A stretch of 23,845 nucleotides of DNA from a virus. Under the pieces are notes generated by a model. The model did no database searches and had not been told where the DNA came from. It saw nothing but the letters and a program-made list of their open reading frames with translations. The translations under genes were made by a program, and so were the position numbers. Numbering within the stretch: the stretch's first letter is position 1; each line of letters opens with the position of its first letter. The stretch lies in the IMG/VR virus record IMGVR_UViG_3300032282_005514, positions 1 to 23,845 of that record, one strand, 5' to 3'. Below, piece after piece: positions 361-22,362 of the stretch.

Positions 361-540
361 AAATGAACCAGAAGATCCATCTCTACCACTTGTTCCTGAA
401 GATCCAGATGAACCAGAAGAACCATCATTTCCTGCGCGACCTATAGGTATAACTTCACTAATAATTTCTTTTTTATTAGTTAAAGTTACATCAATATTTT
501 TGTTACAACTTTCTAATGTAATATTTATATTATTAGACAT
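1..540 (-). CDS. Collagen-like Ser/Thr-rich fibre protein, N-terminal part (runs off left edge)
   Basis: The frame opens at ATG 538-540 and stays open to the window edge, giving 180 visible residues. Residues 1-33 are a non-repetitive head (begins MSNNINITLE). From Gly34 onward the protein is almost pure G-X-Y triplets (GSS, GTS, GNS, GSN, with early GRA, GND, GRD), about 49 triplets. This is the composition of phage collagen-like tail-fibre, head-fibre or spike proteins, in which the repeats form a rigid triple-helical stalk. It starts 1 nt after the stop of the upstream gene, so the two are co-transcribed. In four places a Gly is replaced by Ala (GTS-ASS-GTS), always at the same point of the repeat. 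Proline is absent from the visible triplets, unlike animal collagen. The triplets are loaded with Ser/Thr hydroxyls, possible O-glycosylation sites. The distal receptor-binding end is not visible, so the exact virion location is unknown. Confidence 0.85.
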   Translation of the reverse strand, partial: MSNNINITLESCNKNIDVTLTNKKEIISEVIPIGRAGNDGSSGSSGSSGTSGRDGSSGSFGTSGSSGTSGNSGSSGSSGSSGSSGTSASSGTSGNSGSSGSSGTRGSSGTSGSSGSSGTSASSGTSGNSGSSGSSGSSGTSASSGTSGNSGSNGSSGSSGTSASSGTSGNSGSNGSSGSS

Positions 541-4069: not shown

Positions 4070-4954
4070 AACTTTATTTTTGGTAATATTTACAGTATTA
4101 TTTTGATTTTGTGAAAAATTATCTACTATTACTTTTTTAGGTGTATCGATTTCAATTGATTCAACGATTTCTAAAACTTCTGCTTCTGTATCTTCTTCAA
4201 CTTCATTTTCTTCTTCATTATCGATAATAACACCTTGAACATCAGCAGCTGGATTCGTAGTAAATCCAATGCCTAATGGATAAATTCTGCCAGTTACTAA
4301 TCTGTAAACTGGAGTACCATCATTTAAAGTACCGGGACCGTCGAAACCTTTTAAGAATTTCTTAAATTCTTCTATTTGATTTTGTTTAGTAATTATTTCA
4401 GCATTTTTTAAATCCATACTACCAATTGCAATTGCGTATTCATTAAAACCAATTTCCCAACTTGCACTAATCTTTTGGTATAATGGAGAATCAGGATTAT
4501 TAGAATTAACTAAGGCATCAGCAAAATCACGATCAACTGTTTTATAAACAACAGCAGCTAAAGCAATGTTGAATGGATCTAATTTTCCTTTAACATCGTC
4601 TTCAAATAATAATTGATTATCACCATAAGATGAAAAAGCAGAATTAACAATATGACCAACAACTCTTGTTTTCTTATGTTCGATATTTGTAGGTTTATGG
4701 ATAAAATATTTCTTAAAAGCAATTGCTGTATCGGTATTAATACCATCGCCGTTTTTATTAAAACGATTTACTACAGCAGCGTTAAACGCAGCGCCGACAA
4801 GATCAATATTCTTATCTAAGTTAACACTATTAGGAATTAAACTTTTTAAACCATCTAATGAAGCAACAGACAACAATGGATTTTGATCAAAATTCAATGA
4901 AGCTGTAACAATGTTATCAAATTTAGTTTTATAACGATAAAGATCGCTTGACAT
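3359..4954 (-). CDS. Prohead maturation protease fused to scaffold (531 aa)
   Basis: Residues about 50-240 look like a prohead protease of the herpesvirus/T4 gp21 type. A histidine lies in H-K-K-T-R-V-V-G-H (93-101), a beta strand NIALAAVVYK follows, and the candidate nucleophile serine lies in I-S-A-S-W-E (162-167). An acidic linker (about 244-272) leads to a long charged coiled coil (about 300-480) typical of scaffolds, and the protein ends in a basic tail. Such proteins build the core of the prohead and then digest it. The reading frame is continuous, but codon use changes sharply at Met296 (see the internal-start feature). Its start is 11 nt after a GTGTAA motif that overlaps the portal stop. 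The catalytic assignment is by pattern only; the third catalytic residue is not identified. Confidence 0.8.
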   Translation of the reverse strand: MSSDLYRYKTKFDNIVTASLNFDQNPLLSVASLDGLKSLIPNSVNLDKNIDLVGAAFNAAVVNRFNKNGDGINTDTAIAFKKYFIHKPTNIEHKKTRVVGHIVNSAFSSYGDNQLLFEDDVKGKLDPFNIALAAVVYKTVDRDFADALVNSNNPDSPLYQKISASWEIGFNEYAIAIGSMDLKNAEIITKQNQIEEFKKFLKGFDGPGTLNDGTPVYRLVTGRIYPLGIGFTTNPAADVQGVIIDNEEENEVEEDTEAEVLEIVESIEIDTPKKVIVDNFSQNQNNTVNITKNKVMDLDQILSALKTVLAEKQESEKFSEEAVASISAKIAESIKLKNDEIKAEIASAEKAKLEAVAQAEQFKKDLEENNKKLADSLARLNELETTMSAQAAQELFNSRMNILDTEYDFDDVDRQFLAKEISALDKSDEAFASYKDKLAVVYRHKSKAFKSDQEKAFQDRLEAELAKRMGQVKTVASEVVEKTVEVETALANAKAEDAAIPAQGIEPTEEKVSWKERLSKAFSKENITVKF

Positions 4955-4965
4955 ATAGTATAATA

Positions 4966-4971
4966 TTACAC
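4966..4971 (-). promoter_or_regulatory. GTGTAA box before protease-scaffold gene
   Basis: GTGTAA overlaps the last two codons of the portal gene (Val-stop) and ends 11 nt before the protease-scaffold ATG, followed by TATTATACTAT. Because part of it is coding, this copy is the least independent of the four. Confidence 0.4.
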
Positions 4972-6999
4972 GGAAAACTTAGTGCTGTGATATAATAAGC
5001 TTGCTGAATATGTATCTAATTGATGCTCGGCAGCCATTTCTTGAATAGAATTTAGTATTCCTAGTTTATCTAACGCAGTAGGATCATTTAATACTGAAGA
5101 TGCAGTTTTAGGCCAATCTTTAAATTCAGTTCCAGTAATAATCGCTTCAGTAATACCTGTTGCTAATTTTTTCTGTTCTGCACTTAATGATTTCTTATTA
5201 TATTTCTTTTTTAACCCCGCTTCAACTAAACCATTTAATGTTTTTGATTCATCCATGACTTTAGCAATTGCGTTTTTGGCAAAAACAGAAGCTTTAGTTG
5301 TTCCTTTTGGACGACCTGCTGTGTTAGGTGTTTGATTTTTAACTGGGACTTGACTAGCCGCTATACCGGGAATCGGAGGAGGAATCATTGGAACACCACC
5401 AACAATTGGATTGTAATAACCTTGTTCTCTTTGCTGAACAAATTTTTCTTGAGCAGCAACTAATTCTTCTGATGTAGGATAAATACCAGTTTCGATAACC
5501 TTAATGCCTTCTTCTGGTGGCAATATTCCTAATTCCATCATTCTTGTAACAACACGATTAAATTGAGTTTCGTCTTTTATCGAAACTTCTTCGAATCTTG
5601 CTTTAGGACATTTACCTTTAAATCCTAGATTTTTGAATATACCTTCAATTTCAGGTTGTAGAAAATCATTTATAAAAGCATTTCTTGATTCTTTTAATCT
5701 TTCGAAAAATACTTGAGCTTTAACAGTAGTATTAGCAAACTTTTCAGATCCAATTAAAATATTTTGCAAACCTTCTTTAATATCTTCATTAACAATACGA
5801 TATTTTTCATATCCTAAAACTTTATTCATATCAGGAATAATGAATTCTGCTTTTGTTGTATAATCTGCAACAAGTACGCGACCAACTGATTGATTATTTA
5901 ATAAGCTTTGCATGGCTTTAATGTTTTTATGATTAATGCCACCCTTGCTTGGTTCAGTACCTAAAGTAATTAATAGAATTACATTCTCAATTGTTCTACA
6001 AATAGCTTGATCAATTTTTTTCATTTCAAGCTTAAAGTTGATATCATCTAAAACTGGAAAACCAAATGGAATAGAAAATGGCTCATAATCTTGCTTTTTA
6101 TAGAATGAAGCAATAACATTTGTTGGATCTAATTGAATCTTTAAACCATCACGCGCCCATTGACCATTCTTGATTTTATCTTTTGTTTGATCATCTAATT
6201 GATCAAAGATCATTTTATCATGATCATTCTTTGGAGTCCTTAATCTTTCTAATTCATATTCAGACAAAATCTTTTGATATAACATCTGTTTCCATGAGCT
6301 TGTTCTATTTACAGTAACATAATATGGATTTAATAATGTATAAGAAACAGGTATTTGATTTTTTACATCATAATTACTTGGATAAGGCAATAATGAAACA
6401 TCTGTTGTATAAGATTGACCATCATATGTAGCATAAGATTCTAAAATCTTTTGAAAGTCATTTATATCAAACTTCGCATTTATTTTATAAAAGAAAACAT
6501 TACCACTTCTGTAATACTCACGAAAATATTGATCTTTAATTCCCCAAATCTTTATATATTTCATCCATTTTGTGAAAAAGTCTCTTGCTTTTTGACTTCC
6601 ACCTTCTAAATATATTTCAGCGTTAGCAAACTCAGACATAATATCAACAGCATTTCTGAAAATAGCTACATTTGCATAAGCTTTTTGACATAATTCAATT
6701 GCATCGCGAATATTGTAACCATTAATAGAAGTCTCAAAGGGCAATAAACCTTCTCGAATGTTAGCATAACGATAAATTTTTGGTCCTACGTAAGCTAAAT
6801 TACGACGAATACCTGTAGGATTATCTGTATTTTGTGATCTTTCGTAAGAAGCTTTAGCATCATGATTATAAAAAGGCTCACCAACCAAAGTAGGTTCAGA
6901 ATAATCTCTAATCAAATCTTCTAATGGAGCCGATTGATCTTCTGTTCCTTTAGAAAATTTGCTCCAATATTCTGACTTCTTTGTATATTTACGGCTCAT
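4966..6999 (-). CDS. Portal protein (677 aa)
   Basis: The large size, the position between the large terminase and the prohead protease/scaffold, and the mixed alpha/beta sequence with a long central helical region fit a T4 gp20-sized portal. The portal forms the dodecameric ring at the unique vertex through which the terminase pumps DNA. Visible parts are an N-terminal polar segment (1-60), a wing-like mixed region containing Y-R-S-G-N-V-F-F-Y (about 165-172), a helical stretch with many acidic and basic residues (about 330-480), a Pro-rich loop around 545-560 and an Ala/Lys-rich C-terminal end. No enzyme motif is present. The start ATG is preceded by a GTGTAA box at 11 nt and a 52-nt gap, the largest in this part of the operon. 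Family assignment rests mainly on synteny. Confidence 0.85.
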   Translation of the reverse strand: MSRKYTKKSEYWSKFSKGTEDQSAPLEDLIRDYSEPTLVGEPFYNHDAKASYERSQNTDNPTGIRRNLAYVGPKIYRYANIREGLLPFETSINGYNIRDAIELCQKAYANVAIFRNAVDIMSEFANAEIYLEGGSQKARDFFTKWMKYIKIWGIKDQYFREYYRSGNVFFYKINAKFDINDFQKILESYATYDGQSYTTDVSLLPYPSNYDVKNQIPVSYTLLNPYYVTVNRTSSWKQMLYQKILSEYELERLRTPKNDHDKMIFDQLDDQTKDKIKNGQWARDGLKIQLDPTNVIASFYKKQDYEPFSIPFGFPVLDDINFKLEMKKIDQAICRTIENVILLITLGTEPSKGGINHKNIKAMQSLLNNQSVGRVLVADYTTKAEFIIPDMNKVLGYEKYRIVNEDIKEGLQNILIGSEKFANTTVKAQVFFERLKESRNAFINDFLQPEIEGIFKNLGFKGKCPKARFEEVSIKDETQFNRVVTRMMELGILPPEEGIKVIETGIYPTSEELVAAQEKFVQQREQGYYNPIVGGVPMIPPPIPGIAASQVPVKNQTPNTAGRPKGTTKASVFAKNAIAKVMDESKTLNGLVEAGLKKKYNKKSLSAEQKKLATGITEAIITGTEFKDWPKTASSVLNDPTALDKLGILNSIQEMAAEHQLDTYSASLLYHSTKFSV

Positions 7000-7051
7000 G
7001 ATATAAATAGTTACACATTGTAACTTTAAAAGTGACTTTTAAACATTAATT
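7000..7051 (-). promoter_or_regulatory. Candidate phage promoter before the portal gene (GTCACTTTT + GTGTAA)
   Basis: On the minus strand the terminase-portal gap holds GTCACTTTT (7036-7028), then GTGTAA (7016-7011), then 11 nt to the ATG. The arrangement, including a CAA just before the second box, is shared with the gap at 872-906. The 52-nt gap is notable in an operon where most genes overlap or nearly touch. Confidence 0.5.
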
Positions 7052-8917
7052 TTATGCAATAAATAACGGCTCAAAAGTTTCCATAACATTATCAACTTGA
7101 GTATTTTCCATATCAAAATAAATTTTTGCTAACCAATTACCTAATACTAAAGCTGAATAACTATCTTTTCTAGGTTTATCTGGACCGGTTTTACGTTTTA
7201 AGTTTGCTGGTAAATCAAAATTCTGCAATCCTTGAGCAGAAGTAGTAATTTGTATTAGTGCGCATTCTGTTTTTGTTAATAAAATCATATCAGTTAAATG
7301 CTCAACAAAATCAATCATTTTAGCTTCTTCATTTTCTTTTTCTGAATCTAATGAATTAGAAAACTTTAAATTAGTAATACCAATTCTTTTTTTAGTTTGT
7401 ACTCTGAAATTGTCATCAATTGCTCTGCTACCGAAGAATATACGACGATGATCAAAATTAGCTTGCAACATTTCATTCGCTAAACGTATCCAAGAAGAAG
7501 TTGGCTTTCTTAAAAATACATATTTATATTCCGATTTGTTATATTCCATTTTAGCAGAATATAAGTTTTGAGCATATTCTTCAGGACGCTCAAATTCTGT
7601 TGTGATTGATTTTAGATTGATTTTAGCATCTTTAAAAAGCTCGCTTTCATTACAAGAATTCATAAACTGAACGCCACCGTTATAATCCATACATATTGCA
7701 ACAACATTAAAATTTTGTAGTATATATAAAAAGTATTTGATGTGTTCTTTTAATGATGAACCAGATAAAGCATAAGAATGAACAAGAGTTGATATTTGTT
7801 TTTCTCTATTTATCTTCAACACTTGAATAGCGAAATCGTCAGAAGATTCAGTTTCTGACCAAGAAGGGTCAACAGAAACTATATATTCGTCCTCTGCATG
7901 ACCCGCTACTTCAATTGAAGGCTGTTCACCATCAGGTATAGTACAAAGAGCCATTTTAGAAATTTTAAAATAACCAGAACTATCATCTGTAAATTGTGCT
8001 CCGAATTCTCTTAAAAACTGAGATTCACTCATCGTTGCTTTTGCTTGATTGATCAAATTTTGATCATACAATTGTGTTGGCGCACAATCATAAGAAAATT
8101 GCATAACACAACGTCTAGTAGTATCTTTAGTTTTTGGATTAAAAATTAAATTTTCATATTGCTCGTACAACTTATATAAATATTCAAATTTAAAAGATGC
8201 AGAAGATAATGCAATTAATTTATTATTAGGCCATTGATAGCGATCTTCTTCTTTCATCTCGCCTTTTTCAATCAATTGTGTTTCAAGATTATAAAGTTCT
8301 TCTCTTTGTGTTGGGTTTTGCACAACAGACAAGAATGGAACAATGACTTCATTATAAATACGTTCAGGCATCAATAAAAACTCGTCAATAATAATACGAT
8401 GAAAACGAAAACCACGAAGCTTTTCACCATCGCCTAATGGCAATGCTCTTATTCTGCTTTTACCAATTTCCATAACCCATTCATCATTACTTTTAGATAC
8501 ATGAGTTATACATTGTTTTAATAAATAAGCTTCAGGCTTTGCAGCAATATCTTCAATCTTTTTAAATATCATTTTAGACTGACGAAACGATCTAGACAAA
8601 ATTCCGGTTTCGATACCTTGATTCAAAATAGCATCCAATACAGCATAAATACCAGTAGTATAAGACTTACTCATACCACGGCTCCAAACTCCCAAAAAAT
8701 AATCGCTTTCCAACATGCCTTTAATAGCCATATGTTGAAAAGGAAACAATTTAACTCCAGTAATTAAATCAGTTGAGAATGTAATATTATTTCTTAAGAA
8801 CTGATAAAATAATAATTTAGCTTCTCTTTCTTCTATGTAACCATCTTTTTGGAGAAGCTCTTCATTTGTGATCAAGTAATTCTTTTTTTGTTTCTGGCTC
8901 CCGGTTTCCCAGCTCAT
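7052..8917 (-). CDS. terL: Large terminase subunit (TerL)
   Basis: This 621-residue packaging motor has both expected domains. ATPase domain: a Q-rich entry (FPFQHMAIKG, 58-67), a Walker A of the terminase variant S-R-G-M-S-K-S (79-85), Walker B IIIDE (175-179) and a coupling motif LIALSSAS (234-241). RNase H-like nuclease domain: first acidic residue in SVDPSW (Asp350), second in CMDYNGG (Asp411), third near KDSYSALVLGN (Asp585). All catalytic landmarks are present, so the protein should be active. Headful packaging cannot be told apart from other modes here. The start overlaps the upstream nuclease gene by 56 nt; the next Met is at residue 63, beyond the N-terminal region the fold needs, so this start is kept. 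The portal gene follows after 52 nt. Confidence 0.95.
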   Translation of the reverse strand: MSWETGSQKQKKNYLITNEELLQKDGYIEEREAKLLFYQFLRNNITFSTDLITGVKLFPFQHMAIKGMLESDYFLGVWSRGMSKSYTTGIYAVLDAILNQGIETGILSRSFRQSKMIFKKIEDIAAKPEAYLLKQCITHVSKSNDEWVMEIGKSRIRALPLGDGEKLRGFRFHRIIIDEFLLMPERIYNEVIVPFLSVVQNPTQREELYNLETQLIEKGEMKEEDRYQWPNNKLIALSSASFKFEYLYKLYEQYENLIFNPKTKDTTRRCVMQFSYDCAPTQLYDQNLINQAKATMSESQFLREFGAQFTDDSSGYFKISKMALCTIPDGEQPSIEVAGHAEDEYIVSVDPSWSETESSDDFAIQVLKINREKQISTLVHSYALSGSSLKEHIKYFLYILQNFNVVAICMDYNGGVQFMNSCNESELFKDAKINLKSITTEFERPEEYAQNLYSAKMEYNKSEYKYVFLRKPTSSWIRLANEMLQANFDHRRIFFGSRAIDDNFRVQTKKRIGITNLKFSNSLDSEKENEEAKMIDFVEHLTDMILLTKTECALIQITTSAQGLQNFDLPANLKRKTGPDKPRKDSYSALVLGNWLAKIYFDMENTQVDNVMETFEPLFIA

Positions 8918-9823: not shown

Positions 9824-10486
9824 TTAAGAAAAATAATAAGTAGTTTGAGTGTGAGACCCTAAAAACCAATCAAAATAAAATAATCTATTTTTATTTATAT
9901 TAGCAATTAATTCATTATTTCTATTTGGATCGTGAACTTCAATTGCTATTTTTCTGATTTTAGATAAAATATTTTTATCTATATCTCTAAATATATCGTA
10001 TTCAGAGCCTTCTATATCGATCTTTAAAAAATCAATTTTTTCTAAATTATATAAATTGAATATGTCAGATATAGTTACATTTATTTTAGAAGGATTAGCC
10101 CAAGTTCGATTTATTTTAGAAGTTTCTGAAACTACATTTGCATTAAGATATTCAATATTTGTATTGTGATAAGTGTTTTTAATTAAACACGCAAAAAACC
10201 CATCTCCACCTTCTACTGAAATAATTCTTTTACATTTTTTAGCCGCATAATCACTAAAGAATCCAACGTTAGCTCCTAAATCTACTACTACGTCATCTGG
10301 TTCGATTATGCAGTTGTCCCTTTCATAGATACAATTTGTTGGAGAAAATTCTAGCGCATACATTTCTTTATAAAAGAAATCATACCAATGATGACTTGTA
10401 TCAGTCAGAACATTTTTAAAATCTTTTTCATAAAAAAATCTAGATTTATCTTCTACTAATAACCATTTCTTTTCGTGATCTATCAT
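9824..10486 (-). CDS. FkbM-family SAM-dependent methyltransferase (220 aa)
   Basis: Residues 66-77 (VVVDLGANVGFF) are the SAM-binding motif I, and residues 152-162 (DFLKIDIEGSE) are the signature of FkbM-type O-methyltransferases, which usually methylate sugars or related hydroxyls. Length is typical for a minimal FkbM domain. Its ATG overlaps the stop of the upstream 356-aa gene in an ATGA junction, so it is translationally coupled to the packaging operon. The gene lies next to a mobile-type nuclease, well away from the glycosylation block at 13427-22362. A related FkbM domain is embedded in the 1367-aa protein of that block. The substrate is not known; a sugar or protein of the virion is plausible. 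Confidence 0.85.
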   Translation of the reverse strand: MIDHEKKWLLVEDKSRFFYEKDFKNVLTDTSHHWYDFFYKEMYALEFSPTNCIYERDNCIIEPDDVVVDLGANVGFFSDYAAKKCKRIISVEGGDGFFACLIKNTYHNTNIEYLNANVVSETSKINRTWANPSKINVTISDIFNLYNLEKIDFLKIDIEGSEYDIFRDIDKNILSKIRKIAIEVHDPNRNNELIANINKNRLFYFDWFLGSHTQTTYYFS

Positions 10487-11553
10487 ATAGCATCTTCCTT
10501 TGTAATTCCTAATATTCTAGCTTTCCATGCAGACATGTTTTCAAGCCTATTAGCCTCTTCTTTAACAACTTGTTTTTGCATTTCAGCTATTTTAATCATC
10601 ATTTTTCTTTCATTTTCATCTTGGAATAATTCTACAAGATTAATAATAGAAGCATTTTTTTGTTGATGTTGTTCAACTCTTCTTGAACGTTCGCCGTTAA
10701 GCTTTTGAATAGATTTATCTATGCGTTGTGCACATTGATTATATTCTTCGCTAATGGTCTTTAGAATTTCAGTTAAACGTATAGTAAGATCTTTTTGATC
10801 TTGAGTATCGTTAAACATTTCATTAACTTTATTCTTTTTAATATCAATTTGCCGCAAATTAATATAATCCATACAAACATTAATATATAAATTAATTTCA
10901 TCAATTGTTAGATCAGGTTTATCCCATACTGATCTTACAAATTCCGCCTCAAACAATTCTTTGTCTGTAGAGCTAGTATATGAATCATAATTACCAACAA
11001 AACGTGGACTGGCTAAATAAGTTAATAATTTGTCCATATATTTTCTATGTTGCAAAGAAAGTTTCTCTTCACTTAACTCTTGGCCGCACCATCTATTTAC
11101 TTTGTTGATAACTGTTTTAATAGAACGCGGTATAGAATAACGTTCATTAACACCAGACTCATTATCTACTAAAAAGTCTGGATATTTTTCTTTTACATAT
11201 TTATGAACAGCGCGATATTCTGGGGTGATGAATATATTTAAATTTTGGACTCCTTGAAACTTTTCATTAAATAAAAGTTCTGTGATTTGTTTTGGAGTTA
11301 TTCCTGTTTTTATATTCTGGTCAATAAACTCATATTGAGTAGAACTAAGAATATCAGTTGTTACTGCTTTAGGTTTATCTTTTTTACCTGCGAGAAACCC
11401 ACTATTTACTAAATAATCTCTCACTTCTTTTGCTTCTTTAGATCGACCAGTTAGATCCTGTCGATTATGAAGCATGTTTGCGATTAAAACATAATCATTA
11501 TATCCTTGTTCAATTTTTTGTGCAATAAATTTAGTTTGTTCTTCGTTTAACAT
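10483..11553 (-). CDS. Unknown 356-aa protein with duplicated N-terminal unit, candidate small terminase
   Basis: I do not recognise the family. Residues about 5-53 and 72-125 look like two copies of one unit: each has an x-Q-x-x-F-I-x-Q-x-I-x-x-G start, a helix-turn-helix-like middle and an E-x-R-x-V/D-x-Y end. Such units often bind DNA. The remainder is strongly helical and charged (about 170-356), with a long coiled-coil-like segment from about 255 to 335. There is no membrane segment or catalytic motif. It starts 1 nt after the sigma-like gene and ends overlapping the methyltransferase start. No other gene in the window looks like a small terminase, and the DNA-binding plus coiled-coil plan upstream of terL would suit one, but this is inference only. 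Confidence 0.65.
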   Translation of the reverse strand: MLNEEQTKFIAQKIEQGYNDYVLIANMLHNRQDLTGRSKEAKEVRDYLVNSGFLAGKKDKPKAVTTDILSSTQYEFIDQNIKTGITPKQITELLFNEKFQGVQNLNIFITPEYRAVHKYVKEKYPDFLVDNESGVNERYSIPRSIKTVINKVNRWCGQELSEEKLSLQHRKYMDKLLTYLASPRFVGNYDSYTSSTDKELFEAEFVRSVWDKPDLTIDEINLYINVCMDYINLRQIDIKKNKVNEMFNDTQDQKDLTIRLTEILKTISEEYNQCAQRIDKSIQKLNGERSRRVEQHQQKNASIINLVELFQDENERKMMIKIAEMQKQVVKEEANRLENMSAWKARILGITKEDAI

Positions 11554-11554
11554 A

Positions 11555-12271
11555 TTATTCGTTAAATATATCGTTTTCCCCTAAAAGAAATTGTGCTTTT
11601 AAAAACAACATCTTTTTTAAATTTTTAATCTGCTTATAACCCGCTTTTCTTCCTTTTTCTGAAGTCTTAAATCTTAGTATTTTAGCGACTTGATCATCAG
11701 TTAAATTGTCAATAAAAAACATTTTATAAATAAAAAAATGTTTATCGCTAAGATGACTCTTCATTAGATCATGCAATTTATATTCAGCATCTAAATAATC
11801 ATGATCTCTTGAAGATTCAAAAGCAAAATGATAATTTTTATGATTTTCCAAACTTACTGTCATTTTTACATCATATGCGCTTTTCTTAACTTTTTCCCAT
11901 TTAGCATATAATGGACATTCATCACATTGCTTTCTGCTTTTTGTAAAACCGCAGGAAAATTCATCGCCTGATTCGCCACCAATATTCTGATTAAATGGAC
12001 AAGACAAACATGGACGCGCAAAAGAGGTATAATTATTACGTATTATATTTTTTATTTGATTCGTAACTATACGATTAATCCAAGGTTCAATAGGTCTAGA
12101 TTGATCCCATAAATGCCATTTTCTATATATATGCAATTTAATAATTTGCTCAATATCTTCAAAGTCAAACCAAGTGATTGCTTTTAGCTTCCATTTGTTT
12201 CGGCGTTTCTTGATGACTTTATCAATTGTTTCATACATTTCCTCAAATTTTTTTTTATTGCTGCGTTTCAT
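11555..12271 (-). CDS. Sigma-70-family-like RNA polymerase sigma factor with Cys-rich insert
   Basis: Residues about 33-79 resemble sigma region 2: an aromatic-acidic W-F-D-F-E-D-I-E-Q segment, then R-P-I-E-P-W-I-N-R-I-V-T-N-Q and the basic helix I-K-N-I-I-R-N. Residues about 165-225 resemble region 4, with a helix-turn-helix (L-T-D-D-Q-V-A-K-I-L, then basic residues). Between them lies an insert with C88-x2-C91, C107, C116-x2-C119, a probable zinc site absent from ordinary ECF sigmas. The length (238 aa) is close to that of small sigma factors. It lies between a zinc-ribbon gene (17-nt overlap) and the packaging genes, a position suited to a late-transcription factor analogous in role to T4 gp55. 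Candidate targets are the GTGTAA boxes. Function is inferred from motif layout and is not proven. Confidence 0.75.
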   Translation of the reverse strand: MKRSNKKKFEEMYETIDKVIKKRRNKWKLKAITWFDFEDIEQIIKLHIYRKWHLWDQSRPIEPWINRIVTNQIKNIIRNNYTSFARPCLSCPFNQNIGGESGDEFSCGFTKSRKQCDECPLYAKWEKVKKSAYDVKMTVSLENHKNYHFAFESSRDHDYLDAEYKLHDLMKSHLSDKHFFIYKMFFIDNLTDDQVAKILRFKTSEKGRKAGYKQIKNLKKMLFLKAQFLLGENDIFNE

Positions 12272-13426: not shown

Positions 13427-14470
13427 GTGATATTTCACTGTTTAAGTGTTCCATATACAGCAACTCGTAAAGAATATTCTTTATGCGCTTTTACTCAAAA
13501 AGTATATAAATTTTGTGATGAAATGACCAAACGAGGACATACAGTATATCATTATGGCCATAAAGATTCTGTAGTAAATTGTACTGAACATATAACAGTT
13601 ACTGACGATGATATTCTTAGAGAAACTTATGGTGATTTAAATTCTTGGCGAACAAACGGTTACGATCAACATGTTGATAATAAAGCCTGTAATATATTTA
13701 ATAGTAATTGCCATAAAGAAATTAATAAACGGTTAAAATCTAAGAATGAATTTATTTTATGCTGGTTTGGATTTGGCAATCTAAAATGTGCTGAAAATTT
13801 TTATGAAAAAGCCATAGTAATTGAACCAAGCATCGGTTATGATAGTATGTTTGCTCCAGTAAGAATATTTGAAACGCGAAGTCAGCAACATAAATTACAT
13901 GGAAATTATTCATCAATTGTTGATTTTGGACGCGAATTTATTAACTATCCTGGTTTTAATAAAAACGATTTTGAATATAAATCAGAAAAATCTAATATAG
14001 CTTTATTTTTAGGTCGAATTATAAATGAAAAAGGCGCTCGATTAACTTATGATATTTGTAATCATATAAAACAAGAAATAATATTTGCCGGTCCTAATAT
14101 TTTAAAACTACCAGATACAAAATATTGTAAATTCATAGGTTTTGTTGATCCAGAAAAAAGAAAAGAATTATTAAGTAACGCAAAATTTTTAATTGCACCG
14201 AGCTTATTTATTGAACCATGCAATTGGACTGTAATAGAAGCGCAGTTTTCTGGGACACCAACAGTAACAACAGATTTCGGCGGTTTCACAGAAACAGTTA
14301 TACAAAATAAAACAGGCTATAGATGTTTTAGCCCTAAAAATTTAGTTAATGCAATTTTAAACATACAAAATATTTCTCCGAATGATTGTTATCTTAATGC
14401 AATAAATAGATACACAATTCAAAAACAATGCGATAATTATGAAATGATATTTAAATCTCTGCTTCAATAA
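13427..14470 (+). CDS. GT4-like (GT-B fold) glycosyltransferase (347 aa)
   Basis: The start is GTG at 13427; there is no usable upstream in-frame ATG, and the sequence VIFHCLSVP is a natural first beta strand of a GT-B enzyme. The N-terminal half (1-180) is the acceptor domain. The C-terminal half holds F-L-G-R-I-I-N-E-K-G (194-203, donor-binding loop) and the E-x7-E motif of retaining GT4-type enzymes (Glu263 and Glu271, in IEPCNWTVIEA), followed by G-T-P-T-V-T-T-D-F-G-G. There is no membrane segment, so it should act in the cytoplasm on a nucleotide-sugar donor. The next gene, a GT-A enzyme, starts 12 nt after its stop. Its sugar and acceptor are unknown. It is the only plus-strand operon in the main part of the window. 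Confidence 0.85.
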   Translation: MIFHCLSVPYTATRKEYSLCAFTQKVYKFCDEMTKRGHTVYHYGHKDSVVNCTEHITVTDDDILRETYGDLNSWRTNGYDQHVDNKACNIFNSNCHKEINKRLKSKNEFILCWFGFGNLKCAENFYEKAIVIEPSIGYDSMFAPVRIFETRSQQHKLHGNYSSIVDFGREFINYPGFNKNDFEYKSEKSNIALFLGRIINEKGARLTYDICNHIKQEIIFAGPNILKLPDTKYCKFIGFVDPEKRKELLSNAKFLIAPSLFIEPCNWTVIEAQFSGTPTVTTDFGGFTETVIQNKTGYRCFSPKNLVNAILNIQNISPNDCYLNAINRYTIQKQCDNYEMIFKSLLQ

Positions 14471-14482
14471 ATATTATAGACG

Positions 14483-15322
14483 ATGACGATAAAAACTGTA
14501 ATTAATAATACAAAAAACCTTGATATTCAAGGAGTTACGCTAACTATGACTTGTTGCAAAAGATTACATTTGTTTAAAAAAACTATCAATTCTTTCCACG
14601 AATTTTGTTTAGATAAAAATTCTATAAGTCAAATAATTATTTACGACGATAATTCTAAAATCGAAGATAGATTTGAAATGGAAAAAGTTATTGCAACTCT
14701 ATTTCCTAATACCAATGTTTGTTATAAATATTTTTCTGAAATACCTACAAAATATCGACATGCTTACATAATGCAAAATTGGTACGATGATATTCAAACA
14801 GATTTTGTTTTTCATTTAGAAGATGATAGATTAATTACTAAACCATTTTATATATTTGAGCTGGTTGATATTTTAAAAAGAGATGAAAACGTAGGCATCG
14901 TAAATATATCTCAAACAAAAAGAGATTTTCCAAAAGAATATTTAGAAAAATATAATTTAGTTATAGATTACTCTAAAAATAAAAATTATTGGGTGTGGCC
15001 TTACATAAAGAGTATGCCGTGTGCAGAAATTGTTTTTTATGATACAGTTCGCAGCCAAGAAGGTTCAATCGAATACGGATTTCCTTATTTTGAACAATTT
15101 ATTAACTACGCTGGATTTGGTTTGCAGCCTTGTGTTATGGATATGCGAAAAATAAAAACAATCGAAAAATTTAGATTAAATGACTGTTTAGAGGCTGATT
15201 TTGGTATTAGATATTCAGAAAAATATATAACAATATGTCATAATGAATCCAAATCTATACATTTAGGTTCGTCTTGGTTTCAAGAAAAATCCGCTTATGA
15301 AACAAATAATTCAAACAGATAA
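14483..15322 (+). CDS. GT-A fold (GT2-like) glycosyltransferase (279 aa)
   Basis: A first strand with VTLTMTCCKR (18-27) is followed by a helix, then IIIYDDNS (51-58, the nucleotide-binding acidic motif) and HLEDDR (111-116, the metal-binding DxD equivalent). These are the hallmarks of a GT-A glycosyltransferase of GT2-like type. The later part contains aromatic patches such as NYWVWPY that may bind the acceptor. There is no signal peptide or membrane segment. It follows the GT-B gene by 12 nt on the same strand and meets the minus-strand heptosyltransferase-like gene tail to tail with 12 nt between stops. Donor and acceptor are unknown. Confidence 0.85.
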   Translation: MTIKTVINNTKNLDIQGVTLTMTCCKRLHLFKKTINSFHEFCLDKNSISQIIIYDDNSKIEDRFEMEKVIATLFPNTNVCYKYFSEIPTKYRHAYIMQNWYDDIQTDFVFHLEDDRLITKPFYIFELVDILKRDENVGIVNISQTKRDFPKEYLEKYNLVIDYSKNKNYWVWPYIKSMPCAEIVFYDTVRSQEGSIEYGFPYFEQFINYAGFGLQPCVMDMRKIKTIEKFRLNDCLEADFGIRYSEKYITICHNESKSIHLGSSWFQEKSAYETNNSNR

Positions 15323-15341
15323 AATGCAAAAACTTTATCTG
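15316..15341. terminator. Weak inverted repeat between convergent genes
   Basis: CAGATAAA (15316-15323) is complementary to TTTATCTG (15334-15341) with a 10-nt loop. It spans the ends of both convergent genes and could act as a bidirectional terminator. It has no clear T-run on either side and the stem is AT-rich, so the call is tentative. Confidence 0.3.
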
Positions 15342-16192
15342 AAACTGGTGATATCTAAAATACATTTATCTATTTGAGATTTTACCATTTCAAAATTTAT
15401 ACTTTTTGTGCATTCAAAATCCTTATCTCTTGGACAGTACATCCAATGAGTAAGAATTCCATTTGAATTGTCTATTTTGCTATCATTTAAACATCCATGA
15501 CAAACACTTTTGTTAATCACTCGATAACAATTATTCTTAAATTCATTGTCTTCGTTTGTGCAACCAGAGATCATAACTACTTTTTTATTCAAAGCCCAAG
15601 CTAACCATGATAAACCGCTGCTCAATCCAATAAAAAAACTACAATTTTTGATTTGTTGAATTCTATAATCAATAGGATAGTTTCCTGTTTCATTTATAGC
15701 GCCATCAGGAATCTTATTCCATTTTTCTTTTAATCCATACAGTTCATCCTTGTCAATTACATAAACATCATAATTCAATTTTTTTAAATAACGAACTACT
15801 TTCTGCCAACCAACACCATTATTCCAATATTTCATTTGCGAAGTAGAATGGACACTGATGCAAACATATTTTTTCTTTTTATTAAAAGAGTACTTACTCG
15901 AAGTATTTATAAGAGGAATAAGTTCTTCGTATTCCAAACCTAATGCATCACACGCTATTTTTTGCATTGGTCCTTCTCTAAATACGAAATGAATATCTTT
16001 CACTACATCGAAATCATCTTCATAATTCAAATCAACAAAAATTACATTTGGATTATCTGAATAAAATAAAAAATACCATTTAGTCTTTACATAAACTTGT
16101 CCACCATATTTTTTTTGATAAGCGTCTCCATAAATAGAAAAAGCTATATTATCACCTAAACTGTGAGTTACAAAATTTATTAAAGTCTTCAT
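15335..16192 (-). CDS. TibC/BAHT-like heptosyltransferase paralogue, short form (285 aa)
   Basis: This is a paralogue of the gene just upstream. Shared landmarks in order are S-L-G-D-N-I-A (11-17), V-H-S-T-S-Q-M-K-Y-W-N-N (114-125), G-W-Q-K-V-V (128-133), F-F-I-G-L-S-S-G-L-S-W-L-A-W (186-199), V-V-M-I-S-G and the four-cysteine metal finger C231-x2-C234, C253-P, C261-T-K-S-I. This set is typical of the bacterial autotransporter heptosyltransferase (BAHT) family (TibC, AAH), which moves heptose from ADP-heptose to serines of repeated adhesin domains. Compared with its neighbour it lacks about the first 90 residues, the beta-rich N-terminal domain, and starts directly at the Rossmann domain. Its start overlaps the upstream stop in an ATGA junction, so it is coupled, and the frame is intact. 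It may be a reduced active enzyme or a partner subunit. Confidence 0.8.
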   Translation of the reverse strand: MKTLINFVTHSLGDNIAFSIYGDAYQKKYGGQVYVKTKWYFLFYSDNPNVIFVDLNYEDDFDVVKDIHFVFREGPMQKIACDALGLEYEELIPLINTSSKYSFNKKKKYVCISVHSTSQMKYWNNGVGWQKVVRYLKKLNYDVYVIDKDELYGLKEKWNKIPDGAINETGNYPIDYRIQQIKNCSFFIGLSSGLSWLAWALNKKVVMISGCTNEDNEFKNNCYRVINKSVCHGCLNDSKIDNSNGILTHWMYCPRDKDFECTKSINFEMVKSQIDKCILDITSFR

Positions 16193-17376
16193 TTCTTTAG
16201 ATCAGATATGCAAGCATCTATTTTTTCTTTTACCATTTCAAACGTAATCGATTTTGTGCATTCAAAAATTCTTTCATCATTTTTATGTTCTGGACACCAA
16301 AGCCAGTCACCAGCGTCAAATTCATAGTTAGTATTATTCCAACAACTGTTGCAAACTTTGTTATTATGAACTCTATATGGTGTATAAAATTCTGAATTAG
16401 GATTAGAAAAACCAGATATCAAAACAACTGGCTTTTTACAAGCCCAAGCTAACCAAGAAAGACCAGATCCTAAACCAATAAAGAAATCACAATTATAAAT
16501 ATCTTGTATTCTTTCTGATAGATTTTTATTTCCAGTTTTGTCAATACAGTTGTTTGGAATACTATTGAAATTATTTTCAATACCGAAGGTATGCTCTTTG
16601 TCGATACAAATAACTTTATAACCTAAAGAATTTAAATAATCAACGGTTTTTTGCCAACCATCTTTATTATTCCAGTATTTTGCTTGTGCAGTGCTTTGTG
16701 TAGCAATACATACTATTTTTTGATTATTAGTTATATTATTTAGTTTTAATAATTCAGGAGGATTATTACCGTAAGATAATCCCAATATTTCATTAGCCAC
16801 ATCGCTCAAAGATATAGTTCTCCAATCTTTGCGACAATTTTCATTTGCACCAAAAGGTCTGAAACAACCTATTTTATAAATAAAAATATATTTATCAGTA
16901 TTAACTTCTGAAAAATTAAAAAAATTGATATTTTTATAAAATGATTTATCAAAAATTTCATGTAATGTTGAATAATAATCTATAATACAATCATGTTTTT
17001 CTTGAAATTTTTTTATTGAATCCATCCATGCAAGAGTATCGCCTAAAGATCCTGAATCATTAATAATACAAACTTTTTTATTTTTTAAATCTAAATCTAT
17101 TTGATTACAATATGATTCAGATTTTATATTAATTCTCCAAGGTACGTAATATTTAATACCACAACTGGTCCACATTCCGTTAGTTATAACTGTCGAATGA
17201 ACAGTAGATCCATTACTTCTATCTTCAAAGCTGATATCATATTTTTCATTTAAAGAACCAAGAATCTCTACAAAAGGTCCGTTTCTAAATGAAATATTAA
17301 TAACATTTTTTTGTTTTAAAGAACGTTGTATTTTAAACGGTGTATTAGTATAATTTTTTAATAAAGCTTCTTTCAT
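16189..17376 (-). CDS. TibC/BAHT-family autotransporter-type O-heptosyltransferase homologue (395 aa)
   Basis: Length is close to the roughly 400 residues of TibC. An N-terminal beta-rich domain (1-95) with F-R-N-G-P-F-V-E-I precedes a GT-B catalytic part: I-I-N-D-S-G-S-L-G-D-T-L-A-W (104-117), A-T-Q-S-T-A-Q-A-K-Y-W-N-N (225-237), G-W-Q-K-T-V-D-Y-L, F-F-I-G-L-G-S-G-L-S-W-L-A-W (298-311) and V-V-L-I-S-G-F-S-N-P. The C-terminal end has the metal-finger cysteines C342-x2-C345-W-N, C361-P and C373-T-K-S-I. Family members are cytoplasmic enzymes that glycosylate serines in repetitive surface proteins, usually with heptose. It overlaps the upstream GT4 gene by 4 nt and the downstream paralogue by 4 nt. 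The donor sugar here is not shown by the sequence, and no ADP-heptose synthesis gene is in the window. Confidence 0.85.
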   Translation of the reverse strand: MKEALLKNYTNTPFKIQRSLKQKNVINISFRNGPFVEILGSLNEKYDISFEDRSNGSTVHSTVITNGMWTSCGIKYYVPWRINIKSESYCNQIDLDLKNKKVCIINDSGSLGDTLAWMDSIKKFQEKHDCIIDYYSTLHEIFDKSFYKNINFFNFSEVNTDKYIFIYKIGCFRPFGANENCRKDWRTISLSDVANEILGLSYGNNPPELLKLNNITNNQKIVCIATQSTAQAKYWNNKDGWQKTVDYLNSLGYKVICIDKEHTFGIENNFNSIPNNCIDKTGNKNLSERIQDIYNCDFFIGLGSGLSWLAWACKKPVVLISGFSNPNSEFYTPYRVHNNKVCNSCWNNTNYEFDAGDWLWCPEHKNDERIFECTKSITFEMVKEKIDACISDLKK

Positions 17377-18305
17377 TTTTTTTGTTTATAAATTTTTAAC
17401 ATTTTATCTACGACCTCAGACCAATCATTTTCTTTGGCAGATTCTAAAGTGATTTTCTTATAAAAATCATAATTTTCAATTGCTTGTTTTATTTTTTCTA
17501 CAATAAATCTATGATTTCTTTCTATTCTTATTAACCCTTTAAGATCATTATTTTTTTCAAATGTAGCTAAAACAATTAATCCACAAGCTTGAGCTTCTAA
17601 TAAAGTTAGATTCGGATGACCTCCTTCTAAAATTGAAGCATGGATAAATATAGTATGTTCTTGATACGTTTCTAACAATTGTTGTTCAGTTAAATCATAA
17701 CGAATTTCCAATTTGTCATATTGGACATTCATTCTATCAAAAAACTTTTGATTATTCTTGGGTCCAGCGATTGTGATCGGCATGTTCAATCTTCTTGCTG
17801 CTTCTATCGCATAAGAAAAACCTTTTCGATCTTCACTGCTGTCATGACTAAAACCGTTATTAGCCACACATAATAACTTATGCTGTTTTATATCATTTTT
17901 AGGTTTAAAAAAAGAATTATCCACACCTAAAGACAAATAACTTACATTGGGCAAATCAAAATAATCTACTAAAAATTTTGCAGATACAAATGTATGTATT
18001 GAATTTTTTGCAGCAAGATAATTTTCTTTAAAAGTATAAGAATCTTTACCATATAAATAAGCATGATGATCATTCATGCTAAAAAAATAAGGTATATTTT
18101 TTTCATGTAAAAGATTTGCTAAATTTCCTACATGAGAATGAACAACATCAAATTCATTTTGATGAATATCATCTGTATATCTTATTTCGCTAATATAATT
18201 TTTATTTAAAGAATGAGTATGATAAAACCAAATTAATTTTTCAATAGCGCCCCAACCATTAGGAGGAATTGGTAATAAACCGGGATGCGTGTGAACTATT
18301 TTCAT
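17373..18305 (-). CDS. GT4-family glycosyltransferase (310 aa)
   Basis: The sequence opens with a short beta strand and the loop H-P-G-L-L-P-I-P-P-N-G-W-G-A-I-E-K (7-23), typical of GT4 enzymes (the PPxGWGGxE loop). The donor domain shows L-G-V-D (126-129) before the interdomain hinge, D-R-K-G-F (159-163), I-T-I-A-G-P (177-182) and E-G-G-H-P-N-L-T-L-L-E-A-Q-A-C-G (227-242), the retaining GT4 signature. At 310 residues it is a compact member. Its first 47 nt lie inside the end of the 1367-aa gene, and its end overlaps the TibC-like gene by 4 nt, so all are translated from one message. The donor and acceptor are unknown. Confidence 0.9.
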   Translation of the reverse strand: MKIVHTHPGLLPIPPNGWGAIEKLIWFYHTHSLNKNYISEIRYTDDIHQNEFDVVHSHVGNLANLLHEKNIPYFFSMNDHHAYLYGKDSYTFKENYLAAKNSIHTFVSAKFLVDYFDLPNVSYLSLGVDNSFFKPKNDIKQHKLLCVANNGFSHDSSEDRKGFSYAIEAARRLNMPITIAGPKNNQKFFDRMNVQYDKLEIRYDLTEQQLLETYQEHTIFIHASILEGGHPNLTLLEAQACGLIVLATFEKNNDLKGLIRIERNHRFIVEKIKQAIENYDFYKKITLESAKENDWSEVVDKMLKIYKQKK

Positions 18306-21300
18306 TTTTAATTCTTAAAACATTATCAATATTAATTGTATCAACAATATTTATTATTTTTTGAAAATTTTCTTTGACTATTGTAACCTTAGTTGGTTTT
18401 TTATCAAACTTTATTAATTCTAAACAATAAGGATTAGATTTGTCAATGATAAAATTATATTCTTTTATGACTCCTTCTATTTCGACAGTAAACTTACATT
18501 CATTTTTTTGACCGTTACTCATGTCTATAATTGCAATACCGAAAGTATCTTCAAGCAATACATCGTTTTCATACACTCTAAAAACATTTGGTATGCATCC
18601 ATTAATAATTTTATCACTTTCTACTGGAGATAGAATACGATTCCACGAACTATTTTTTCCATAATCAGTAAAAATTAAATCACTATCTTTTATAATTATT
18701 TCATCTATTTTTGGCGAGACAATATTTGTCAACAATTCTTCTGCTGATAAAAACTTTTCATCACGAATATAATTTTGATAATCTTTTTCATTATTTATTT
18801 GAGGAAAAATAGACAACAAATAATCGATTTCAAAATACATTACATGATAAGAAGTGAAAAGATCACCATTATCATTATGTAAATAAATCAACCCTTTTTT
18901 ATCTGAATCAACCACGTTTTGCAATTCTTCAAGTATTCTATTTGTATCCTCTATCATACAATCAGCTTCAGTTTTTATTATATGAGTATAATTTAAACTC
19001 TTTAAAAATACCAAAGCTCTATAAAAATTAGATAATACTGATAATCCATGCTTTTGTTTTCCTAAAGTTGGAACATGAAAATTATGAAACTGATTAGAGT
19101 AAAACAAGATTAAAGACTTATAATTTTTATATTCATGTTTAAAAAGCCTATTTTCCTTATCATATATTAAATAATCTACATAATCGATTACTTTAGGATC
19201 AAATTTAGAATTAGTCATCAACAATATCGGCAAACCTGTTTTCTTCATATTTATTGCATAATTAATAAAATTATCAAGATTCGATTGAGTATGAAAAAAT
19301 ACATCAGCAGCTATTACAGCTTTTATAGCGTTACTCTTTCGTGAAAATATAAACTTAAGATTTCGATCAAAAAAATCTATCTTAACATTAATATCATTTA
19401 CTATATCTACTGAAGACCAATTATAATTTAACGCAACAGGATCAAGCTCACAATCATCGATAGCAAATGCTGAAAAATTTATTTTTCTTTTTTCTATTAT
19501 GATTTTATTAGTATTTGCATCATATATATCAATATATCCTTCAAAACTTGCTTGTCTAGTTTGTGTATAAAAATCAATTATATTTTTATTTCTTTTGATT
19601 TTTAAAGTTGCATGTAATATATCAGCATCATGAATTTGACCTAATTTTTTTCCTTGCTTAAAAACTTTTTTCCTTTTCTTTTGTTCACTAAGATGTGAAA
19701 AATCTGAAGTTTCATGTAATCTGTAAACTACTGTTGGAGAACCTTTTTGGTCATTATAGCCTTTGCCAAATTGAAGCATTAATAAAGGATATATCCAATA
19801 AAAATCAAATACTTCTTCGCAATCATATTTTTTTAGCAAATGCAAATTATTTTGTAATATATCATTTCTATACATAACTCCACAAGAAACATAATTACAA
19901 AAGACATTTTGTTCAAAACTTAATTCTTTTATTACTGAATACCTTAAATTACCATAATCATTATGATAAAGATAGGTTGGACTATGCAAAATGTAATCAT
20001 TGTTTTTTTCTAAAAAATCTATTTGTAATTGTAATTTATTGTCTGTTATATAATAATCATCACCATCTAAAAAAGTAATATATTTAGTTTTACATGTAGA
20101 TAAAAGATTATAAAATCTAGAAAAAACTATGCCAATATTTTTTTCTTCATTTATAATTGTTACATTTGATAAATTTTTATATTTCTGTAAGATATTGAAA
20201 GTTTTATCTGTAGATCCATCATTTGTTATTAAAATATTTACTTCAGCAATATTTTTTTGCATAAGAATTGAATCTATACATTGTTCTATATATTTTTCAT
20301 GATTATATGTTGGAATAACAACAGTAACTAATTTAGGACAAATGTTTATATTTGTAGCTAAAAAAGTACCATTAATAGAATTTATAAGTTGATCTTCTGA
20401 ACATGAATTTTCTCCAACCGCGAAATTATTTATTTTAAATCCACAACTTCTCAAATAAGAAATCAAATTTTTAGCTTTGTCATTCACATTTTCATGTATT
20501 TCAACTAATAGATTTTTTACTTTAGAATAAAAATCTTTATTCAAAGAATTCAAAATCATGTATTCGGCACCTTCAACATCAATTTTTATTAAGTCTATAG
20601 TATTTATATTTTGTGATGCACAATATTCATCTAATTTAATAGTTTCAACTTCACAACTAAGTATTTCATTCTCTGGAAGATGAGGAGTAATATGGTTTTT
20701 ATCAAAAGCGCTAATTGTTGAATTTTCAGGATGATAATAAAAAGTCAACTTACCGGAATTATCGCTTACAGCTTTATTAACAATTGTTACTTTATTATTT
20801 GAACCATAACGATGTCTTAAATTAGATAAGGCATTGGGGCTTGGTTCAAAACCATAAATTTTCTGCGCTCCATTTCGCAACATTTTTTCTATAAAAATTC
20901 CGTTATTAGCTCCGAGATCTAAAATCGTTTTAAGATTATTTAAATCAAGAGTAGGAAACTCTCTTTCTATATTTTTAAAAATAAAAAATTCTTGATAATT
21001 CCAAAATGTTCTATCAAATGGATTATGCAGTGAAAACTCTATTTTATCAGGATGTCTATTTGTATTTCTTATGAAATGTTCTTTACTAAACAAAAATTTA
21101 TAATTCAGATCGTAAAAATCTACAATAAAACCTCTAAAATCTTCTTTACTACCAAAATTAACAGATGGACCCATTGGTAAAATCCACGTATTAATATCTT
21201 TATTAAATTTGTGATTCCTTATTGAATAAAACGTAGTCAAAGAATCAATGTCCTTGAAAACCAAATGTGCGCGAACTTCTGGATTATTAATAGGATTATC

Positions 21301-22362
21301 TAAACATGAAATCCAAAATTTATCTTCTTTCATGTCAAAGTTTAATGAATAATGAGAGCTATCAATATGTTTACCAATTACTTCATCATACACAGACGTG
21401 ATCTTTTCTTTCAGCATATTAAGATTGATATCTTTATCTAATGATAAAAACATCATGTTATCATATTTATTGTACATATTACAATAAACAGGTAAGTTAT
21501 ATAAGAAAATAGGCAAATTCCAACCAATGCATTCTTTAATAACTAATGGACTAGTTTCTTTATCGTGTTCAAAACCTTTTGAAGCAAAGAAAAAGAAGTC
21601 AGCTGCATCATAAAAATTATCGACATCACTTCTTTCGCCCCAGATTTTACAGTTCGGCGGTAAATCTTTTATTGCATCTTCCCAGTAATATTTAAAATTA
21701 TCTGCTAAAGAACCAATAAAATGAAACTGCACTGGTAAATTAGTCAGTTTTCGAGCATAGTCTATTAATTCTTTCTGATTTTTACGAGCAGTAAATAATC
21801 CAATATTAATAACATGAACAAGATTAGGATCAAGGTCTAACTTTTTTAACGCTGTTAACCTATTTGATTTCTTCTTGTATGTAATAGGGAATTCTACTAC
21901 TTCCGAATCTATATTGATACTTGACATCATTTGACGTTGATATTCGCTAACAAATAAGAACTTATCAGGAAAAAATAATTTATTATCAGGATTAAAACTA
22001 CTATCATGTGATGTTTCAAATATCTTGTATGTACGATTAACATTATAAATCGCTTCTGCAACTTCGTATGTACAAAAATATTCTGGCATTTCCTCGAAAT
22101 GAATGATGTCGGGCGCAATACGCTTTATTTCATCGAGTACCTGCATTTTATTTTGACCAATAGTAATGAGTTTATTACCTAATATTCTTTGTATTTCTGA
22201 TCTTTGAACAACAAGTACTCCGCCAGTAATGTCATCATATTCAATACAATAGATTTCACATGAATCATTTAATAGTTTAATTTTTTCTAGCAGATAACGA
22301 GGTGCGCCACCAGTAGATAAATGTGGAGTAATAAATAATACTTTTAATTGTTGATTTGACAT
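18259..22362 (-). CDS. 1367-aa multi-domain glycosyltransferase-methyltransferase fusion
   Basis: At least three, probably four, catalytic domains occur in one frame. Residues 5-340: GT-B/GT4 enzyme (T-P-H-L-S-T-G-G-A-P-R near 12-22; E269-x7-E277 in KETSPLVIKE). Residues about 460-645: FkbM methyltransferase (I-L-D-L-G-A-N-N-G-I-F, 480-490; L-I-K-I-D-V-E-G-A-E, 591-600). Residues about 677-900: GT2/GT-A enzyme (V-V-I-P-T-Y-N, 681-687; N-D-G-S-T-D, 714-719; F-L-D-G-D-D, 764-769). Residues about 1015-1200: probable second GT-A domain (L-P-I-L-L-M-T-N-S; Y-L-I-Y-D-K-E-N; a DxD-like E-A-D-C at 1132-1135). Beta-rich linkers around 365-430 and 925-1010 resemble each other. There is no membrane segment. 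The ATG overlaps the preceding stop (TAATG). It could build and methylate a short glycan in one protein; the substrate is unknown. Confidence 0.85.
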   Translation of the reverse strand: MSNQQLKVLFITPHLSTGGAPRYLLEKIKLLNDSCEIYCIEYDDITGGVLVVQRSEIQRILGNKLITIGQNKMQVLDEIKRIAPDIIHFEEMPEYFCTYEVAEAIYNVNRTYKIFETSHDSSFNPDNKLFFPDKFLFVSEYQRQMMSSINIDSEVVEFPITYKKKSNRLTALKKLDLDPNLVHVINIGLFTARKNQKELIDYARKLTNLPVQFHFIGSLADNFKYYWEDAIKDLPPNCKIWGERSDVDNFYDAADFFFFASKGFEHDKETSPLVIKECIGWNLPIFLYNLPVYCNMYNKYDNMMFLSLDKDINLNMLKEKITSVYDEVIGKHIDSSHYSLNFDMKEDKFWISCLDNPINNPEVRAHLVFKDIDSLTTFYSIRNHKFNKDINTWILPMGPSVNFGSKEDFRGFIVDFYDLNYKFLFSKEHFIRNTNRHPDKIEFSLHNPFDRTFWNYQEFFIFKNIEREFPTLDLNNLKTILDLGANNGIFIEKMLRNGAQKIYGFEPSPNALSNLRHRYGSNNKVTIVNKAVSDNSGKLTFYYHPENSTISAFDKNHITPHLPENEILSCEVETIKLDEYCASQNINTIDLIKIDVEGAEYMILNSLNKDFYSKVKNLLVEIHENVNDKAKNLISYLRSCGFKINNFAVGENSCSEDQLINSINGTFLATNINICPKLVTVVIPTYNHEKYIEQCIDSILMQKNIAEVNILITNDGSTDKTFNILQKYKNLSNVTIINEEKNIGIVFSRFYNLLSTCKTKYITFLDGDDYYITDNKLQLQIDFLEKNNDYILHSPTYLYHNDYGNLRYSVIKELSFEQNVFCNYVSCGVMYRNDILQNNLHLLKKYDCEEVFDFYWIYPLLMLQFGKGYNDQKGSPTVVYRLHETSDFSHLSEQKKRKKVFKQGKKLGQIHDADILHATLKIKRNKNIIDFYTQTRQASFEGYIDIYDANTNKIIIEKRKINFSAFAIDDCELDPVALNYNWSSVDIVNDINVKIDFFDRNLKFIFSRKSNAIKAVIAADVFFHTQSNLDNFINYAINMKKTGLPILLMTNSKFDPKVIDYVDYLIYDKENRLFKHEYKNYKSLILFYSNQFHNFHVPTLGKQKHGLSVLSNFYRALVFLKSLNYTHIIKTEADCMIEDTNRILEELQNVVDSDKKGLIYLHNDNGDLFTSYHVMYFEIDYLLSIFPQINNEKDYQNYIRDEKFLSAEELLTNIVSPKIDEIIIKDSDLIFTDYGKNSSWNRILSPVESDKIINGCIPNVFRVYENDVLLEDTFGIAIIDMSNGQKNECKFTVEIEGVIKEYNFIIDKSNPYCLELIKFDKKPTKVTIVKENFQKIINIVDTINIDNVLRIKNENSSHASRFITNSS

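Follow-up and report, generated by a model that had tools for sequence, protein, structure and literature searches.

Tandem TibC-type BAHT glycosyltransferases in a phage operon and their possible link to collagen-like, serine-rich tail fibres

The enzymes closest to those described here are TibC of ETEC (PDB 4rap and 4rb4) and AAH, and in the literature that we found BAHTs appear only as modifiers of bacterial adhesins. In TibC, Asp110 is the catalytic base, Thr226, Lys230, Arg286 and Trp305 belong to the donor site, and four cysteines make up the iron finger, while position 300, a proline in TibC and a serine in AAH, governs heptose stereoselectivity (PMC4358343). Furthermore, a hydrophobic thumb tip (F265/V266) is required for the TibC dodecamer and for activity, and TibA is no longer modified once TibC lacks its first 80 or 95 residues (PMC4358343). 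Literature searches for phage-encoded BAHTs returned nothing relevant.

Glycosylation of virions by phage-encoded glycosyltransferases is reported for mycobacteriophages, where capsid and tail-tube C-termini are named as targets (Freeman et al. 2023, as related in PMC12619734 and PMC10877033). The pair of phage genes analysed here is proposed to act in a comparable manner, in that phage-encoded enzymes would decorate structural proteins of the virion, but the enzyme is of the TibC type and the target is probably a collagen-like, serine-rich fibre. The pair shares with TibC and AAH the fold, the catalytic Asp, Lys and Trp, the four-cysteine iron finger and, in its long form, the N-terminal barrel. 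Unlike TibC and AAH, it belongs to a separate viral clade whose thumb tips are polar rather than hydrophobic, it resides in a phage operon, it includes a barrel-less short paralogue, giant fusions are found among its relatives, and autotransporter acceptor repeats were not found in 46 phage records.

The gene pair and its operon

The window, i.e. the whole stretch of 23,845 nucleotides that was analysed, comes from an IMG/VR virus contig carrying a T4-type terminase and PhoH, in agreement with the phage operon setting assumed in an earlier note on this DNA. The tandem arrangement at 15335-17376 likewise holds, and consists of two minus-strand ORFs of 285 and 395 amino acids. The features of the window are as follows.

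1 to 540, minus strand: collagen-like (Gly-Ser/Thr-Ser)n protein, candidate acceptor, incomplete at the window edge (PF01391 Collagen, 3.8e-20)
9824 to 10486, minus strand: FkbM-family methyltransferase (TIGR01444, 1.5e-19; PF05050)
13427 to 14470, plus strand: GT4 glycosyltransferase (PF00534, 5.6e-16; phrog_3408, 1.9e-61)
14483 to 15322, plus strand: convergent 279-aa protein, family unassigned, with a homologue in the related locus L001
15335 to 16192, minus strand: short BAHT, a barrel-less paralogue of 285 aa
16189 to 17376, minus strand: long, full-length BAHT of 395 aa, with N-terminal beta-barrel, GT-B catalytic domain and iron finger
17373 to 18305, minus strand: GT4-type glycosyltransferase (PF00534, 5.3e-8)
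18259 to 22362, minus strand: 1367-aa protein with a GT4-like N-terminal part (PF13692), an FkbM methyltransferase (PF05050, 2.5e-24), a GT2 domain (PF00535, 1.1e-21) and a further C-terminal part

The stop of the long gene and the start of the short one share 4 nt, and an overlap of the same size joins the long gene to the GT4 gene upstream, which in turn is overlapped by the gene of the 1367-aa protein. Relatives of this GT4 protein occur fused to BAHTs in other phages (L004 and others). The convergent 279-aa protein, which matched nothing in Pfam or PHROG, is possibly GT-A-like, to judge by a LEDDR motif. In L001 (7048-8281) and L002, the short BAHT gene is set apart from the convergent genes by a LicD/nucleotidyltransferase-like gene and a cytidylyltransferase. 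The window has neither of these two, and the gap there is just 12 bases (15322-15335), which suggests a phospho-decoration step that varies between phages.

Both proteins are members of the TibC/BAHT family, as had been claimed from their motifs. Against the NCBIfam profile TIGR04414 (Aah/TibC, cut-off 200), the long protein scored 338.4 bits over positions 10-372 of 374 (338.2 in the genome scan), and the short one scored 209.7 bits over positions 86-373, passing the cut-off narrowly in the genome scan as well (205.5 bits). The next-best family reached 23-30 bits for the two proteins, the curated GT9 families WaaC/WaaF gave 12-30 bits against cut-offs of 134-569, and a PHROG search returned no match for either. 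Sequence matches to TibC in the PDB had E values of 5.9e-72 for the long and 3.3e-42 for the short protein. AlphaFold (AF2) models of the two (pLDDT 93.2 and 95.1) were compared by Foldseek with the whole PDB, and TibC chains came out on top for both: 4rb4 for the long form (E 4.5e-40, TM 0.85, 37% identity in the structural alignment) and 4rap for the short form (E 7.2e-26, TM 0.88, 32% identity). WaaC and WaaF, which have the GT-B fold in common with the pair, followed at E values of about 1e-6 to 1e-10, but they lack both the iron finger and the beta-hairpin thumb, modules unique to TibC (PMC4358343).

Since its profile match is confined to positions 86-373, with the first 85 missing, the short protein lacks the N-terminal barrel, as the earlier note had proposed; the barrel is present in the predicted long form and absent from the predicted short form, which additionally lacks some 20 residues of the N-lobe. 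The landmarks and the cysteine finger read earlier from the sequence were found in both proteins, in order (SLGDTLA/SLGDNIA, QAKYWNN/QMKYWNN, GLSWLAW common to both, and the cysteine motifs C-x2-C, CP and C-TKSI). Residues D113, T229, K233, R289 and W308 of the long form correspond to D110, T226, K230, R286 and W305 of TibC, and its cysteines C342/345/361/373 align with the four iron-finger cysteines, while the short form retains the equivalents of all of these. The cysteines at TibC 339, 342, 358 and 370 are aligned in the pair and in every viral and bacterial member examined, and alignment and predicted fold together point to an iron-finger metal site in both phage proteins.

A viral clade and its short branch

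A profile scan of viral contigs yielded at least 581 confirmed BAHT relatives and a scan of bacterial genomes 331, the best 80 of each being used for a tree of the catalytic domain. In this tree the viral proteins form a clade of their own (support 100/99), distinct from that of the bacterial TibC proteins. The only bacterial-labelled sequences inside the viral clade of this best-80 tree are two MAG contigs, L088 and L092 (4.4 kb). Their labels read Chloroflexi and uncultured bacterium, the autotransporter acceptor repeat TIGR04415 is absent from both genomes, and they are probably phage sequence binned into MAGs. A separate, bacterial case of tandem genes is seen in Acidaminococcaceae (L151, L163), where two full-length BAHTs lie near each other.

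Many of the best 80 of the at least 581 viral BAHTs are domains of fusion proteins, either GT4-BAHT proteins of about 710 aa or proteins of 1000-1900 aa that include FkbM or GT2 domains. In Microcystis phage Mel-JY01 (L007, PP395634.1), a gene at 4750-8430 is annotated as 'methyltransferase FkbM', and its C-terminal BAHT domain was missed. Several large glycosyltransferase fusions (L018, L019, L029, L033, L058, L064, L066) carry an extra, weak GT9/BAHT-like domain at residues of about 290-550.

The short forms constitute a single clade (95/89; 14 rows of the tree of the best 80 viral and best 80 bacterial proteins), which grew to 21 rows when L184/L185, L182 and the 297-aa proteins of L186/L188 were added, the deeper forks being weak. 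Their own partners do not form their sister group, and the duplication is therefore old. A recent duplication of the pair is thus rejected by the tree, and the earlier idea of a duplication confined to this phage is not supported. The partner is a free full-length BAHT, a GT4-fused BAHT or a barrel-less fusion, and for 16 of the 20 distinct short proteins this BAHT lies directly upstream, adjoining or overlapping. A rule that the short form always stands beside a partner is untrue: the one in L182 lies 3.8 kb from a BAHT, one interrupted copy is 634 bp away, and the two of L184/L185 have no BAHT partner within the locus. In both of the latter contigs, whose BAHTs are barrel-less, a possible stand-alone BAHT beta-barrel is encoded (L184:4338-4826, L185:1122-1643), moderately supported by hhalign (probability 88%, P 3e-6) and by an HMM i-E of 0.018, and barrel gene and barrel-less BAHT possibly make up a split enzyme.

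Both genes of the pair are under purifying selection (dN/dS ~0.1, from dN of 0.05-0.20 and dS of about 0.9-2.6). This bears on the idea that linkage or a role as structural subunit is all that preserves the short copy, which would then be a decaying or non-catalytic remnant. The loss of the barrel and of about 20 N-lobe residues would fit such a remnant, as would an in-frame stop that interrupts the short BAHT in L045 and L047 (about 7177-8034), two contigs from different metagenomes in whose lineage the protein may be dispensable. Against this, D110, T226, W305 and all cysteines are kept across the short clade (K230 is K or R), dN/dS is about 0.05-0.11, and the fold of the short form is predicted with high confidence; we regard a remnant as improbable. 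At the site of TibC position 300, the short form of the window has a serine, as do 20/20 short forms, and glycine is found in 17/20 partners, a difference which suggests that the two forms may handle the donor differently.

The two forms may also differ from TibC in their assembly. The thumb-tip loop reads IENN in the long form and LKEK in the short one. By a motif-based count, which alone was used since the alignment column varied between two alignments, the tip is hydrophobic in 63/78 of the bacterial proteins, 2/76 of the viral ones and 1/21 of the short forms. As the tip is so rarely hydrophobic on the viral side, the phage BAHTs probably do not form a TibC-like ring through this contact. 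A hetero-complex of long and short forms is plausible from their conserved adjacency. In its strictest version, tailed phages would O-glycosylate long (Gly-Ser/Thr-Ser)n tail fibres by means of an obligate long-short hetero-complex, a virion pathway undescribed in the literature that we found, and the TibC family would gain a new class of acceptor; we consider this version tentative and somewhat doubtful.

Candidate acceptors and donors

The earlier note pointed to repetitive autotransporter adhesins, the acceptors of the characterised family members. TIGR04415 occurs in 33/40 genomes behind the bacterial BAHT matches (L088 and L092 are among the 7/40 without it), and it was found in 0/46 BAHT-bearing phage records, which include sequences of 190, 636 and 735 kb and are mostly fragments. 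Autotransporter repeats were accordingly rejected as a phage-encoded acceptor. A role in modification of the host, in which an autotransporter or a surface glycan would be heptosylated during infection so that receptors are changed or superinfection is blocked, draws on the action of characterised BAHTs on autotransporters (PMC4358343) and on serotype-converting glycosyltransferases of phages, which are established knowledge (also PMC12619734). It is set back by the separation of the viral clade from the bacterial one and by the same 0/46 count, and it leaves the association with serine-rich phage fibres unexplained; on balance we find it unlikely.

This association begins in the window itself, where the ORF at 1-540 matches PHROG tail-fibre families (9.8e-22) and contains a 63-bp tandem array. 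Collagen-like, Ser-rich repeat proteins resembling it were found in 27/46 BAHT records, a count to be read with the ease in mind with which low-complexity repeat matches are inflated, and they lie close to the BAHT gene in L007, L092, L186, L188 and L195-L198. In Mel-JY01 (L007), the Gly-Ser/Thr-Ser ORF is directly upstream of the FkbM-BAHT gene, and the collagen-like protein of L188 ends in a Peptidase_S74 fibre chaperone. A collagen-like protein with Gly-Tyr-Thr repeats near the BAHT gene in L015 (4652-6643), L016 and L214 is a possible variant acceptor.

Because such repeats match one another easily, the association was also approached from the side of the repeats, and viral contigs chosen solely for a run of eight G-[S/T-like]-[S/T-like] codon triplets in tandem were scanned with TIGR04414. 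A BAHT was present in 19/50 of these GSS/GTS-repeat contigs, compared with 1/50 and 0/49 in collagen-like controls with G-P-x and G-[K/N/D/E]-x repeats, respectively (Fisher p 9.7e-10). The difference persisted when contigs were matched for length (15-130 kb) and GC (0.30-0.48), at 10/33 vs 1/55 (p 1.7e-4), and among those of 30-130 kb, at 7/23 vs 1/33 (p 0.006). The BAHTs of the repeat-contig set are diverse, with a maximum identity of 64% and a median of 39%. Since they are placed non-randomly on the tree (5 changes vs 16.7 when shuffled), lineage is a possible confounder, and the co-occurrence could stem in part from shared phage lineages.

We thus favour, with a probability of roughly one half, a virus-specific BAHT pair that O-glycosylates the phage's own collagen-like (Gly-Ser/Thr-Ser)n tail fibres, with donor, acceptor, order of steps and complex being what we infer. 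During infection, the long enzyme, whose barrel makes it the likely protein-acceptor enzyme, would recognise the repetitive Ser/Thr fibre, perhaps via the barrel, and would transfer heptose or a related ADP-sugar to a fibre serine or threonine. The short enzyme may share a complex with the long form or may add a different or second sugar, and the remaining glycosyltransferases and methyltransferases of the operon would extend and methylate the glycan before virion assembly. Against this reading, 31/50 repeat contigs carry no BAHT, 19/46 BAHT records (many of them fragments) carry no such repeat, and the adenine contact R286 is lost in some relatives.

A different order of events is conceivable, in which the BAHTs add heptose-like sugars to a glycan begun by other glycosyltransferases of the operon on a virion protein, DNA or lipid. 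The fusion of viral BAHTs to GT4, GT2 and FkbM domains speaks for it, as do the fold shared with the glycan-acting GT9 enzymes WaaC/WaaF and the lack, in the short form, of the N-terminal part that TibC needs for TibA modification (PMC4358343). The pair is far nearer to TibC than to WaaC/WaaF, though, and the association with Ser-rich repeats indicates a protein acceptor, which makes such an extension rather unlikely, if somewhat less so than an action on the host. As for DNA as the acceptor, the ORFs of the window include no evident base-modification gene, the contig being a fragment.

For fibre glycosylation by the pair, a donor has to be supplied. ADP-heptose pathway genes were not found in the window, so that the donor would need the host or the missing part of the genome as its source. 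Some other BAHT phages carry genes of this kind, which speaks for the proposed reading: gmhA scored above cut-off (LR756504), an RfaE domain I-like kinase reached 306 bits, below the 345-bit cut-off (LR756501), and a partial RfaE domain II lies at the contig end of the L185 record. Near the barrel-less BAHT of L184, a PfkB kinase resembling RfaE/HldE domain I (13773-14537) and a LicD-cytidylyltransferase fusion (10950-11939) are encoded.

Implications for the family and for phage fibres

Most likely, the pair has another target and another origin than was first proposed, with serine-rich fibres strongly associated in the place of adhesins. A large branch that is virus-specific and probably acts on another acceptor extends a family described so far, in the literature that we found, through bacterial enzymes. 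It also accounts for phage genes that have remained unannotated, such as those of the window, or that, like the Mel-JY01 copy, bear a label which covers only another domain. The prediction which follows is that many phages, this isolated Microcystis phage among them, bear glycosylated collagen-like, Ser-rich tail fibres. If true, this would bear on fibre stability, on host recognition and on the escape from defences that cut or bind fibres.
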